In this document: positions 38,153-46,403 of the stretch, piece after piece | Layout of the letters: each line of letters starts with the position of its first letter | Numbering within the stretch: the first letter of the stretch is position 1 | From: Prochlorococcus sp. AG-409-I11 | GTDB lineage: Bacteria; Cyanobacteriota; Cyanobacteriia; PCC-6307; Cyanobiaceae | DNA: 64,000 nt | Direction of reading: 5' to 3' | Assembly: GCA_003215725.1 (NCBI GenBank) | Contig: QCJX01000007.1 | Location: forward strand, 1 to 64,000 | Notes under the pieces: generated by a model | What the model was told of the DNA's origin: nothing | Databases searched by the model: none | What the model saw: the letters and a program-made list of their open reading frames with translations, nothing else | Made by a program: the position numbers and the translations under genes

Positions 38153-38274
38153 ATTTTGGCAATTGAATCAGGATCATGAGCTTATATTTTTTAAAATACA
38201 GTTGATATAAATCAAATTTCTTTTCTAAAGCACGTTGAACCTCTTAGATTGAAGAAAGGATTAATGCTTTGATT

Positions 38275-40212
38275 ATGAGGTTGAGTGAGTTAAGTCATCC
38301 AAATCAGCTTCATGGATTGTCAATTGACGAGTTAGAGGATGTTGCTTGTCAAATTAGAGAAAGGCACTTGCAGGTAGTTTCTACAAGTGGTGGTCATCTA
38401 GGGCCAGGGTTAGGCGTTGTTGAATTAACGATAGCGTTATACCAAACATTAGATCTTGATGTTGATAAGGTCGTTTGGGATGTAGGTCATCAGGCTTACC
38501 CTCACAAACTGCTTACCGGTAGATATAAAGACTTCGATAGCCTTAGACAGAAAAAAGGGGTTGCTGGTTACTTAAAAAGGAGCGAAAGCAAATTTGATCA
38601 TTTTGGAGCTGGACATGCCAGCACCTCAATCTCTGCAGCACTTGGTATGGCTCTAGCACGAGACAATAGAGAGGAGAATTTTAAATGTGTAGCAGTAATT
38701 GGAGATGGAGCTTTAACAGGTGGAATGGCGTTAGAGGCTATTAACCATGCAGGCCACTTGCCCAACACGCCCTTTCTCGTAGTACTAAATGATAATGATA
38801 TGTCGATATCACCACCAGTTGGAGCACTTTCAACTTATTTAAATCGTATAAGGCACAGTGGACCTGTTCAGTTTATTTCTGACAGTTTCCAAGAAAGTGT
38901 AAAGAACCTACCCTTTATGGGTGAAGAAATTTCTGAAGAACTTAAGTCAATTAGAGGAAGTGTTCGTCGTTTATCTGTACCAAAAGTTGGAGCTGTATTT
39001 GAAGAACTTGGGTTTACATATATTGGTCCTGTTGATGGACATGACATTTCTTCTTTAACAGAAACTTTTGAAAGTGCTCACCGTCTTTCTGGTCCTGTAC
39101 TTGTTCATGTTCTTACAACAAAAGGAAAAGGATATCCTTATGCTGAAGCTGATCAGGTTGGCTATCATGCACAATCAGCTTTTGATTTAACTACTGGCAA
39201 ATCACTCCCATCTAATAAACCAAAGCCACCAAGTTATAGCAAGGTTTTTGGTCAGACTTTAGTTAAGTTATGTGAGCAGAATAAACATATTGTAGGGATT
39301 ACTGCAGCTATGGCTACAGGTACAGGTCTTGATCTATTACAAAAACAAGTTCCTAGTCAATATTTTGATGTTGGCATAGCCGAACAACATGCTGTGACTC
39401 TTGCGGCTGGCATGTCATGTGAAGGAATAAGGCCTGTTGTCGCTATTTACAGCACATTTTTACAAAGAGCATATGATCAATTAATTCATGATGTTGGTAT
39501 ACAAAAACTACCAGTTACTTTTGTATTAGATAGAGCAGGAATCGTTGGTGCTGATGGACCTACTCATCAAGGTCAATATGACATTAGTTACCTTAGATCT
39601 GTTCCTAACTTTGTTGTTATGGCCCCCAAGGATGAATCTGAACTTCAAAGAATGTTAGTCACATGCATAAATCATAATGGACCTACAGCTATGCGAATTC
39701 CTCGTGGATCTGGATTAGGTGTTCCTTTAATAGACGAGGGATGGAAATCATTGGAAATAGGTAAAGGTGAGTTAATCATTGAAGGAGACGATCTACTTAT
39801 AGTTGCTTATGGAACAATGGTAGAAGAAGCCATTAAAACAGCAGATTTGTTGAGAGCATCTTCTATTCGATCAACAGTAATCAATGCAAGATATTTAAGA
39901 CCTCTTGATAAAACTTTAATTCATCCTTTAGCAAGAAGAATTGGTAAAGTTGTCACAATGGAGGAAGGAGCTCTCCCTGGAGGGTTTGGATCAGCAATAG
40001 TTGAATCTTTATCAGATGAAAATATTTTTGTATCTACTTTGAGAATTGGTATTCCTGATCAATTAGTAGACCATGCAACTCCTGACCAAAGTAAAGAAGA
40101 TCTAGGCTTAACACCTCAACAAATGTCTTTACAAATTAGAAAACATTTTAATTTGTCTATCGATCAGAGTTTTGCTTTTGATGGGTCAGAAGATCCAGCC
40201 TTAAAAAGTTAG
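38275..40212 (+). CDS. dxs: 1-deoxy-D-xylulose-5-phosphate synthase
   Basis: 645 residues from ATG 38275 ([16 protein letters not shown]); a TTG two codons upstream is unlikely. The thiamine-diphosphate motif [18 protein letters not shown] is present. [16 protein letters not shown] and the pyrimidine domain with [16 protein letters not shown] follow, then the transketolase C-terminal domain. It condenses pyruvate and glyceraldehyde 3-phosphate. This is the entry of the MEP pathway that feeds carotenoids, phytol and quinones. The flavoprotein gene downstream starts 11 bases later and may act on isoprenoid chains. Confidence 0.97.
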
Positions 40213-40223
40213 TTATTAGGTTT

Positions 40224-41441
40224 GTGACCATTTTGGTCGCTGGAGCTGGTCCATCTGGTGCTCACCTGGCTTGTTTGCTTGCGTGCAAAGGAATTAAAGT
40301 AACATTAGTAGATAAATTAAAATCCTCTAAAGATAATAATTTTTCTAGTGCAGCATTACCATTAAAATCTTTAAGAGACCATTCAGTACCTTTACAATCG
40401 ATTTCTTCTTATTGGAATAAATGGCAAATATACGACCCTTATGGTTCTAATTATCAATGGACCTCTTCTGTTCCGCTAGGAGTAGTTTTAGATTTTTCAA
40501 TATTAAGAGAAAGCTTATGGGAAAGAGCCAAGAAGTTAGGAGTTGAAGTTTTAATTGGCTGGGAAGTGATGACTGTTATTTCTAGAAATACACATGCTCA
40601 AGTAGTACTAAATAGTTCTTTTGGCCAAGCAATAAATAGAAATTTTCAATTAGTTGTTGACGCAACAGGACAGACAAGGGCTTTGCTAAAAAAACACTGT
40701 AAGAACACAATTAATACAAATCAAAAATTGTTAACAGGAACTGGAATTGAATTTTTAATAAAAGTAGATAATAAAACTTCTCAGAAGTGGAAAAATTGTC
40801 TTACATTTTTTATTGGAAATAAATGGATTCCGCATGGTTATGGTTGGGTATTTCCAATGAAAGATAATAATCTTAAGGTTGGTATTTGTCAGCTTCCTCC
40901 AACAAATAGAAAGAATGTAATTACCAATTCGTACGCTATTAAAAGGCTAATTCGGAATTTAGAATTAGATAAATTTAATATCTTAGACAAACATGGAGGT
41001 GCTATTAGAAGCACAATTGATAGAAGTGATATGCTTACTTCTGGAAGAATTATAGGAGTTGGCGATGCAATTAGTACAGCTAATTTATTAGGAGGTGAAG
41101 GTATTCGGCATGCAATGAAAAGTGCAGAAGTTCTTGCTTCTTTTATTATTAAAAAATATAATTTTGAATGTAAAGCTTATACAAATAACAAATCAATAGA
41201 CATCAAATCCTACAGAAAAGATCTTTCAAAAGCCTTTGACTGGCGATGGAAATTAGCCAATCGTATTGCTAAACGTACCTGGTGGGGCCTCTCTGGAGCA
41301 GATTCTGACAATCGCTTATTCCTTTTAATTAAACACTTAAACAAAAAAATGAGCGCTGAAGAAATCAGCGCTCTTCTTTTTGATTACCGCTTCGAGCGTT
41401 ATGGTCTTCGCATTTTGCCTTATTTGTTCAGATGGAAATAA
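40224..41441 (+). CDS. FAD-dependent oxidoreductase of the geranylgeranyl-reductase type
   Basis: 405 residues from GTG 40224. The N-terminal Rossmann motif ILVAGAGPSGAHLACLLACKG binds FAD. RIIGVGDAISTANLLGGEGIRHAMKSAEVLA is the second FAD motif typical of geranylgeranyl reductase and related monooxygenase-like flavoproteins. The PHGYGWVFPMKD motif also fits that family. The position directly after dxs suggests work on an isoprenoid, but it is more divergent than ChlP and the substrate is unknown. A perfect terminator-like hairpin lies inside its last 90 bases. Confidence 0.8.
   Translation: MTILVAGAGPSGAHLACLLACKGIKVTLVDKLKSSKDNNFSSAALPLKSLRDHSVPLQSISSYWNKWQIYDPYGSNYQWTSSVPLGVVLDFSILRESLWERAKKLGVEVLIGWEVMTVISRNTHAQVVLNSSFGQAINRNFQLVVDATGQTRALLKKHCKNTINTNQKLLTGTGIEFLIKVDNKTSQKWKNCLTFFIGNKWIPHGYGWVFPMKDNNLKVGICQLPPTNRKNVITNSYAIKRLIRNLELDKFNILDKHGGAIRSTIDRSDMLTSGRIIGVGDAISTANLLGGEGIRHAMKSAEVLASFIIKKYNFECKAYTNNKSIDIKSYRKDLSKAFDWRWKLANRIAKRTWWGLSGADSDNRLFLLIKHLNKKMSAEEISALLFDYRFERYGLRILPYLFRWK
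41351..41381 (+). terminator. terminator-shaped hairpin inside the flavoprotein coding region
   Basis: GAGCGCTGA and TCAGCGCTC form a perfect 9-bp stem around AGAAA, followed by TTCTTTTT. Upstream, seven A residues give a T-run on the other strand, so the element is potentially bidirectional. It ends about 60 bases before the flavoprotein stop codon and would also serve as the terminator of convergent psaK. It encodes SAEEISALLF in frame. Confidence 0.65.
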
Positions 41442-41476
41442 CAATGTTATCTAGAAAAGGCAATTTTGTTCTATTG

Positions 41477-41737
41477 CTATAGAACTCCTCTTGCAGCTAG
41501 ACCCAAAATTGAGCCTATCCCAAGAATATGACCTAGGCAATTTGCTGCTACAACAGAAGCATGGCTCATGCCACCGTAGAAATGTGAGTTGGGGACTTCA
41601 AATCCAACATTTGGTTTTGCAATATTTGCTCTAGCAATTGCATAGGCCAGCACGTTGCAGGCGATCATGACTACTGCGCACTTTGGAGACCACTGAAAAG
41701 TGGCTGGGTCTGCGGTAGCCAATAAGGTCGTGATCAT
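41477..41737 (-). CDS. psaK: photosystem I reaction centre subunit PsaK
   Basis: 86 residues from ATG 41737 (MITTLLATADPATFQWSPKC), the usual family start; an upstream in-frame start at 41782 would add 15 atypical residues. Two transmembrane helices are visible: KCAVVMIACNVLAYAIARANI and SHASVVAANCLGHILGIGSILGLA. The motif GGMSHASVVA is typical. PsaK sits at the outer edge of photosystem I and helps bind antenna proteins. Confidence 0.93.
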   Translation of the reverse strand: MITTLLATADPATFQWSPKCAVVMIACNVLAYAIARANIAKPNVGFEVPNSHFYGGMSHASVVAANCLGHILGIGSILGLAARGVL

Positions 41738-45227: not shown

Positions 45228-46403
45228 CTATTCTATCCATTCTACTCTAGAGCATTCTCTTTTAATAAGCAGATTATTTGCAACATCTTTGGTTTCACAT
45301 GGACTATGCTCAATGACAGCCTTTATTGATTTTTTGTGGAAATCATGTTGAAGGACTAGAGCATCTTCTAACTTCTTATTTTTACTATAAGCTATAAGTA
45401 CACATTCAGAATTTTCTTTAGAATTAATCTTTTTGTTTGATAATTCTCTAACCTTATCTATAGCAAAACTAAAACCAGTCCCTGCAGCAATTGATTTATC
45501 TGTTCCAAACTTTTCAACTAACTTGTCATACCTACCTCCTTTTGCAATTACTATAGGAGCAGATACACCTTCACAAACTAATTGAAATACTAATCCATTA
45601 TATAAGTTGAAGTGTGGTTGGAATGTAGTATCTAAAAATAATTTTATTCCTTCTTCTTTAGATCTTGAATCGACAATATTAAAAAGTTTATATAATTCGT
45701 CGAATATTTGACTTTTACCGTATGTGGATTCTAAAAAGTTTAGAATCTCTTCCCAACTTCCACGTGCACTAAGAACTCTAATAAGTTTTTCCTTTAATTC
45801 ATTTTCCAAGCTCAAATTATCAAGATCTATCCTATTTAGATTTACGAGAGATGATCTTGTCATCTCTCGTAAATCTAAGGGAATTTCTTCTAATATTAGG
45901 TCCATTATAGATGTATGACCTATTAAAAGGCTCGGTTTATAATTCTGATTCAATTCACATTCTTTATACGCATCAATTAGTAAACAAAGAAGTTCAATCT
46001 CTGCAGTAATTCCTTTTATTCCAAATAGTTCCACTCCACTTTTCAAATTTTCTTCTATCAGTAATCCGCCTTCTATAGCTTGATTACTTTCAAACACGGT
46101 TCCCGATGACCATAACCTTAATGGTCTTGGCTTCTTTGCAAGTCTGGTACATGCAGCTCTTGCTATAGAGGCTGTCATTTCTGGTCTTAGGCCTAGTGGT
46201 TCATTTGCCACTAATGTTGCGATTTCCTTGCTGGAAATTCCACCTCCTGCCATTAGAGTTTCTGTTCTTTCTATCCTTGGTGGAGCCACTTCCTCGTAGC
46301 CCCATAGTCTGTATATTTTTGCAAGACGTTGGCTTAACAAATGGTTTGACTCCACTTGTTGAGGATTGAGATCTCTTGCTCCAGCTGCTGGTTTTAAAGC
46401 CAA
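45228..46403 (-). CDS. hisZ: HisZ, ATP phosphoribosyltransferase regulatory subunit
   Basis: 391 residues from TTG 46403. It resembles class II histidyl-tRNA synthetase without tRNA-charging elements: GARDLNPQQVESNHLLSQRLAKIYRLWGYEEVAPPRIE, LRPEMTASIARA, and a late IAKGGRYDKLVEKFG block. HisZ activates the short form of HisG in the first step of histidine synthesis. A remarkable 19-bp perfect inverted repeat lies in the middle of the gene and is part of the conserved coding sequence (separate entry). Confidence 0.92.
   Translation of the reverse strand: MALKPAAGARDLNPQQVESNHLLSQRLAKIYRLWGYEEVAPPRIERTETLMAGGGISSKEIATLVANEPLGLRPEMTASIARAACTRLAKKPRPLRLWSSGTVFESNQAIEGGLLIEENLKSGVELFGIKGITAEIELLCLLIDAYKECELNQNYKPSLLIGHTSIMDLILEEIPLDLREMTRSSLVNLNRIDLDNLSLENELKEKLIRVLSARGSWEEILNFLESTYGKSQIFDELYKLFNIVDSRSKEEGIKLFLDTTFQPHFNLYNGLVFQLVCEGVSAPIVIAKGGRYDKLVEKFGTDKSIAAGTGFSFAIDKVRELSNKKINSKENSECVLIAYSKNKKLEDALVLQHDFHKKSIKAVIEHSPCETKDVANNLLIKRECSRVEWIE
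45836..45878. repeat. 19-bp perfect inverted repeat inside hisZ
   Basis: Left arm 45836-45854 (TTAGATTTACGAGAGATGA) is the exact reverse complement of right arm 45860-45878, with a five-base loop (TCTTG). On the hisZ message it would form a hairpin in the segment encoding LDLREMTRSSLVNL. No T-run follows, so it is not a standard terminator. The coding frame is unbroken. Confidence 0.95.

Follow-up and report, generated by a model that had tools for sequence, protein, structure and literature searches.

Terminators that serve both directions between convergent genes have reportedly been described by Ju, Li and Liu in 2019. In E. coli, the convergent arfA/mscL pair goes one step further: according to the sections of the two reports used here (PMC10070815, PMC3989581), an inverted repeat in the 3' coding part of arfA overlaps the 3' UTR of mscL, and without RNase III a short arfA mRNA is seen that ends just past the repeat and is ascribed to premature transcription termination. 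Further 3' UTRs ending within the coding sequence of a neighbor are treated, together with overlapping transcription and the excludon, in the relevant part of PMC7154746. Terminators located late in translated open reading frames of E. coli are repressed by the following ribosome, as set out in the excerpted results of PMC4824070: in an engineered construct whose terminator precedes the stop codon by 38 bp the efficiency was 40% of the control's, and more than 27 nt beyond the last ribosome suffice for termination. Cyanobacteria are without Rho (stated in the portions of PMC5100998 and PMC13289151 consulted), and the latter portion, dated 2026, gives a hairpin with U-tract at only 22% of the transcription units of Synechococcus elongatus, so that a terminator should not be taken for granted; photosystem transcripts of this species end at defined positions more frequently (76%, P = 0.05; same portion of PMC13289151). 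How transcripts are ended in Rho-less cyanobacteria is an open question. Among the titles and abstract openings listed from the openly licensed PMC literature we found neither a psaK hairpin of the kind described below nor codon-locked terminators of convergent genes.

The hairpin studied here lies in Prochlorococcus sp. AG-409-I11, on a stretch of 64,000 nt that was analyzed as a whole (the window). The host genome (G000; 1.33 Mb, 74% complete) belongs to a genus with no other member in our collection. The elements of the locus are:

38269 to 40212, + strand: dxs, upstream of the flavoprotein gene; in the relatives read that have no flavoprotein gene it faces psaK
40224 to 41441, + strand: gene of an FAD flavoprotein of the geranylgeranyl reductase (GGR) family, host of the hairpin, from its open reading frame and family matches
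41341 to 41350: T-tract of the psaK strand, ATTTTTTTGT, downstream of the stem on the - strand
41351 to 41359, + strand: 5' arm of the stem, GAGCGCTGA, codons (at)G AGC GCT GA(a)
41360 to 41364: loop AGAAA, variable among relatives
41365 to 41373: 3' arm of the stem, TCAGCGCTC, codons (a)TC AGC GCT C(tt)
41374 to 41381, + strand: T-rich tail of the sense strand, TTCTTTTT, encoding LLF
41442 to 41476: gap of 35 nt between the stop codons of the flavoprotein gene and psaK
41477 to 41737, - strand: psaK (TIGR03049, E 1.2e-34), start set by comparison with relatives; most likely terminated by the hairpin

An earlier note on this DNA had placed a terminator-shaped hairpin with a perfect 9-bp stem at 41351-41381, and we could confirm it there, with the stem at 41351-41359/41365-41373 and T-rich sequence on either side; six of the nine pairs are G-C, and an A-run (41343-41349) flanks the stem opposite the sense tail. 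The terminator shape claimed for both strands is likewise found in the host genome, where both a mechanical scan and folding list it in either direction, and the peptide SAEEISALLF is indeed encoded in frame. The distance to the stop codon, given as about 60 bases, is 65 nt from the end of the stem to the TAA at 41439-41441, which puts the hairpin within the last 30 codons of the flavoprotein gene; it lies 103 nt downstream of the stop codon of the convergent psaK. The label geranylgeranyl-reductase-like is acceptable, though weakly founded: the match to TIGR02032, the geranylgeranyl reductase family (E 6.8e-32), does not reach the curated cut-off, and Pfam GGR_cat gives 30 bits (cut-off 27). 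The listed psaK reading frame extends to 41782, 15 codons upstream of the ATG at 41737 suggested by relatives.

In 16 kb of sequence 9 terminator-like sites were found, compared with 10.2 ± 2.9 in shuffled controls; a terminator-like match alone is therefore not above chance. What is unusual about this hairpin is its strength. Folds of 45 nt reached -19.6 kcal/mol on the sense strand (z -5.2) and -22.9 kcal/mol on the psaK strand (z -6.2), and none of 200 shuffles was equally low. With longer segments the psaK strand retained a z of -4.0 (147 nt), and the sense strand gave only -1.4 (142 nt; 18 of 200 shuffles equally low). The 27-nt core folds at -17.3 kcal/mol in the host genome and qualifies as a G+C-rich hairpin; energies on the psaK strand range from -11.6 to -18.5 kcal/mol in all 19 loci of the hairpin set defined below. 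When up to three mismatches were allowed, the dyad pattern occurred at one further place in the host genome (with three mismatches), and a reversed control pattern gave two matches. Elsewhere in the window (45835-45879, + strand) there is a very long terminator-like inverted repeat, for which 20 pairs were counted.

We searched 300 genomes of the cyanobacterial family for the flavoprotein, with matches, often weak, in 255 of them, and analyzed 70 homologues, i.e. the 30 best-scoring loci (the window's own included) and 40 lower-scoring ones. The hairpin set comprises the window locus and 18 relatives (n = 19, 15 genera), defined by the peptide SAxx[ILV]SA and a psaK more than 70% identical, this line having been set after the data were seen. 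Since the flavoproteins are 44-52% identical, the synonymous sites are expected to be reshuffled. Instead, both serine codons of the stem (Ser377 and Ser382) are AGC in 19 of 19 loci, where local codon usage predicts 2.2 for each; the (I/L/V) codon is xTC in all 19 (2.3 expected), and the alanine codon GCT is found 19 times at Ala378 and 17 times at Ala383 (7.5 expected each). The locked pattern of the SAxx(I/L/V)SA codons is thus AGC GCT .. xTC AGC GC(T). AGC makes up 6-18% of the serine codons in the hairpin loci, yet 38 of 38 within the stem. Of the 99 conserved codons with four- or sixfold degeneracy in the gene, none but Ser377, Ala378 and Ser382 is invariant; Ala383 ranks sixth. When the codons were resampled, 0-13 of 1000 trials at each locus produced an equally stable stem. 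The synonymous sites of the stem, which the earlier note had proposed to compare across strains, are therefore locked across 19 loci and 15 genera. Relatives that keep the peptide and lose the complementarity, which that note had named as evidence against the hairpin, do not occur where psaK is more than 70% identical (complementarity kept in 19 of 19). Outside this set, none of eight other loci with the peptide, all of higher G+C content, has all five codons, the nearest locus left out (L011, psaK 66% identical) having three of five and seven more distant ones 0-3.

Between relatives the loop varies, and the core of a near-perfect symmetric 21-bp repeat is invariant. At the outer pair, 11 loci have G opposite C and 2 have A opposite T, and in 6 the two bases do not pair (n = 19); the resulting association (11/0/0/8) rests on 1-3 independent pairs only. 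Formal covariation is weak (0.029, compared with 0.028 in shuffles and with a higher 0.099 for a structure shifted by +2), because most pairs, those of the core, never vary. With covariation weak and independent pairs few, the case is carried by codon choice and by the genomes without the flavoprotein gene. In a tree of the flavoprotein, open at its base, the hairpin loci are grouped (3 changes; 0 of 500 shuffles equally low). A tree of dxs plus psaK is mostly unresolved, with 7 changes for the hairpin and 8 for presence of the gene, and is compatible with gain as well as with loss.

In every one of the 69 loci that yielded psaK, this gene is convergent with the flavoprotein gene; the short piece of the 70th locus (L026) gave no psaK. 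The two stop codons are 14-35 nt apart in the hairpin loci, but 72 nt in L006, and 9-24 nt apart in other Prochlorococcus-type loci, with the exceptions of L048 (43 nt) and L031 (overlap). A gap of 14-35 nt offers little room for a terminator, and a psaK terminator outside the gap must lie in the neighbor. At a loose cut-off, 30 loci have 2 terminator-like sites on the psaK strand within 0-99 nt downstream of psaK, 18 within 100-199 nt and 5 within 200-299 nt, compared with 0-3 in each of the 23 bins of 100 nt that cover 300 to 2599 nt; a stricter cut-off gives 0, 10 and 5, then 0-2. Fifteen of the 19 hairpin loci are among the 18 with a site at 100-199 nt. In L008 no psaK-strand terminator was present at the loose cut-off. 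Three hairpin-less sisters have a different psaK-strand hairpin in the coding region (L010 and L028, psaK+132 to +136; L024, psaK+129); the one shared by L010 and L028 reads TCCTCCG../..GGAGGA.

The strongest evidence for a role in psaK comes from genomes without the flavoprotein gene, of which we read 12 loci (G028, G013 and ten others). In G028 (L126) psaK and dxs are convergent with 355 bp from stop to stop, and no flavoprotein match is present between them, one weak match lying elsewhere in this 77%-complete assembly. The exact stem GAGCGCTGA/TCAGCGCTC is nevertheless kept 88 nt past the psaK stop (L126 1856-1878), i.e. where it starts in 8 of the 10 gene-bearing loci compared with G028 (87-94 nt), and it is followed on the psaK strand by the tail ACTTGTTTTTG with 6 T in 9 nt. 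One frame still reads QVSADCVSAL, which marks the stem region as a fossil of the host gene; the stem has thus outlived the gene that contained it. In G013 (L113, about 1868-1900), also gene-less and with the fossil FERMGLRLVPV, the psaK-side stem is AACGCTG/CAGCGTT. Relative to the usual stem this is a paired change on both sides, and flanking pairs extend it to -22.7 kcal/mol; it may descend from the common stem or be of new origin. Eight of the ten other gene-less genomes have another psaK-strand hairpin with T within 260 nt at the loose cut-off, those of L122 and L131 being weak. In L109 and L128 none was found within 260 nt at this cut-off.

Position, codon lock, distribution and survival after loss of the host gene point in one direction: the hairpin is probably the intrinsic (Rho-independent) terminator of psaK, or at least a hairpin that forms its 3' end. 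As the convergent stops are a few tens of bases apart, psaK transcription would run into the last codons of its neighbor and stop about 110-165 nt past the psaK stop codon. No ribosome would follow on this strand, so that the hairpin would be free to fold; it lies far past the last ribosome on the psaK message. The codons for the neighbor's Ser-Ala...(I/L/V)-Ser-Ala would have been frozen as AGC GCT ... xTC AGC GCT to preserve the hairpin, and the same DNA would encode a peptide on one strand and end transcription on the opposite one. In the sense direction, ribosomes trailing RNA polymerase closely would prevent most termination, allowing full-length protein to be made. We infer both the termination on the psaK strand and its suppression on the sense strand. 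Of the earlier suggestion that the element serves the convergent psaK and is tolerated in the flavoprotein gene, the first half is supported by the codon lock in 19 of 19 loci and by the G028 stem; mere tolerance does not describe an element to which the codons are locked.

The sense strand has terminator features of its own, and the hairpin might be a shared bidirectional terminator that also ends some dxs-flavoprotein transcripts within the reading frame, giving non-stop mRNA, with the sense function under selection as in arfA of E. coli, for which arfA/mscL is a precedent. All 19 loci have a T-rich sense tail (5-7 T per 9 nt); it exceeds the psaK-strand tail in T in 14 of them, with 4 ties. 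At a strict cut-off without spacer, 16 of the 19 hairpins qualify as terminators when read in the sense direction and 5 when read in that of psaK. Over the 30 loci, 21 sense terminator-like sites were counted within 100 nt upstream of the stop codon, compared with 7 within 330 nt downstream. The terminator shape, the rich tail and the few sites past the stop make the worry about non-stop messages a fair one. The total T content of the sense tail, however, equals the codon expectation (6.37 versus 6.22), which does not support selection for sense termination, and LLF-type residues occur in 70 of 70 loci, with or without the hairpin. The codon of Leu385, however, is CTT, which puts five T in a row, in 12 of 19 loci (4.9 expected), compared with 3 of 12 hairpin-less sisters (3.1 expected), and this excess could mean selection for a sense T-run. 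Conservation of the residues past the hairpin (F, Y and F in all 70 loci, G in 69) implies that the full-length protein is needed and that the sense gene is read through at least in part. In G028, moreover, where stem and psaK-side tail are retained, the sense-side tail TTATCCTACC has 4 T in 9 nt, a lower count than in each of the 19 loci. Together with the repression of late terminators by translation (in the excerpted results of PMC4824070), by which sense termination is probably suppressed here as well, this makes a selected sense function rather unlikely. Quite improbable, in our view, is a refinement in which the hairpin is a two-way stop gated by translation, the psaK message always being ended and the sense message ended within the reading frame only when ribosomes lag, with both uses selected. 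If it were true, poor translation would truncate the flavoprotein message, making it a target of tmRNA, and keep antisense transcription off psaK.

The tails on the psaK strand bear on a further reading, in which the polymerase stops further on and exonucleases trim the psaK mRNA back to a stem that stabilizes its 3' end or serves its processing. The psaK-strand tail has 7 T per 9 nt in the host genome and 5-7 in 8 of 19 loci, and 2-4 in the other 11 (2-3 in L005, L008, L009, L012 and L029, 4 in six more), and the stem is retained in spite of these poor tails. Some of the poor-tailed loci (L005, L009, L013, L027 and L029) have a strong, lineage-specific second psaK-strand hairpin with T-tail deeper in the flavoprotein gene (psaK+229 to +247); for L005, L009 and L029, with their weak first tail, it was found as a second terminator at psaK+229 to +245. 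REP-like hairpins stabilize in this way in E. coli (relevant part of PMC13289151). The same part of that report finds such structures largely absent at S. elongatus ends without U-tract, and the 8 well-tailed loci, the window among them, as well as G028 with its 6 T, fit a stabilizer poorly, so that we consider a stabilizing hairpin in place of a terminator distinctly unlikely. The weak T-tracts of the 11 loci are the main difficulty for the psaK reading; in these loci the stem may protect the 3' end, act together with a second site, or be active on the sense strand as well. On the side of the psaK tail, the A content shows no clear excess over codon expectation (4.42 versus 4.15, p 0.08). In 39 hairpin-less outgroup loci (L035-L074 except L048) there is an A excess just upstream of Ser-Ala (3.15 versus 2.46 per 9 nt), which does not enter our argument.

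The invariant core of the near-perfect symmetric 21-bp repeat could also be read as a dyad in double-stranded DNA that binds a regulator. With at most one mismatch, the dyad pattern matched in 90 of 400 genomes of the family, beside psaK in at least 20 genomes among the matches listed and elsewhere in others, mostly larger genomes; small genomes that bear the hairpin contain it once, at the psaK site, among the matches listed. One genome, G101 (genus g36), has 38 places matching AGCGCTGANNNNNTCAGCGCT with at most one mismatch, possibly copies of a dispersed palindrome with no relation to psaK. The single copy in the small genomes, the location at the 3' ends of genes with T-tails, and the half-site letters of G013, which differ while pairing is kept, leave a regulator site very unlikely. 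That the peptide SAxxxSA together with codon bias yields the hairpin as a mere by-product has next to no credibility: the repeated Ser-Ala makes a stem easy to evolve, and readily yields one because AGCGCT equals its own reverse complement, but the minority codon AGC, the resampled codons and the eight peptide-bearing loci without the full codon set argue that it is not, unless local codon usage is set by something else.

If psaK termination is the right reading, this would be a clear case of one sequence acting as protein on one strand and as termination signal on the other, and searches confined to intergenic regions miss such terminators. Evolution seems to have flagged one photosystem terminator here, constraining the codons of the neighbor in 15 genera and keeping the hairpin in one genome past the loss of that neighbor.

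With bidirectional terminators the psaK hairpin shares the design of one hairpin with T-tracts on both sides at convergent genes; it differs in lying wholly inside a conserved coding sequence, in being preserved through codons and in the strength of its tails, which varies by lineage. The likeness to arfA/mscL, as far as the sections of PMC10070815 and PMC3989581 used here describe that pair, lies in two tail-to-tail genes, one of which carries an inverted repeat within its 3' coding region. Maintenance of the stem by synonymous choice in a 3' coding region is a further trait shared with the arfA type. Whereas that type of control calls for residues past the hairpin that are dispensable or removed from the active protein, those of the flavoprotein are conserved; and the arfA stem serves the sense gene, through RNase III cleavage, non-stop mRNA and control by tmRNA, while the evidence on the psaK hairpin points to the gene on the opposite strand. 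As in the cases in the relevant part of PMC7154746, a termination site within the coding sequence of the next gene is what our reading of psaK implies, but in contrast to the excludon discussed there we see no sign that psaK and the flavoprotein gene regulate each other. The construct of PMC4824070, in the excerpted results, carries a terminator within a reading frame 38 bp before the stop codon, comparable to the 65 nt of the flavoprotein hairpin; it is, however, an engineered E. coli system, whereas the natural hairpin probably functions on the opposite strand.
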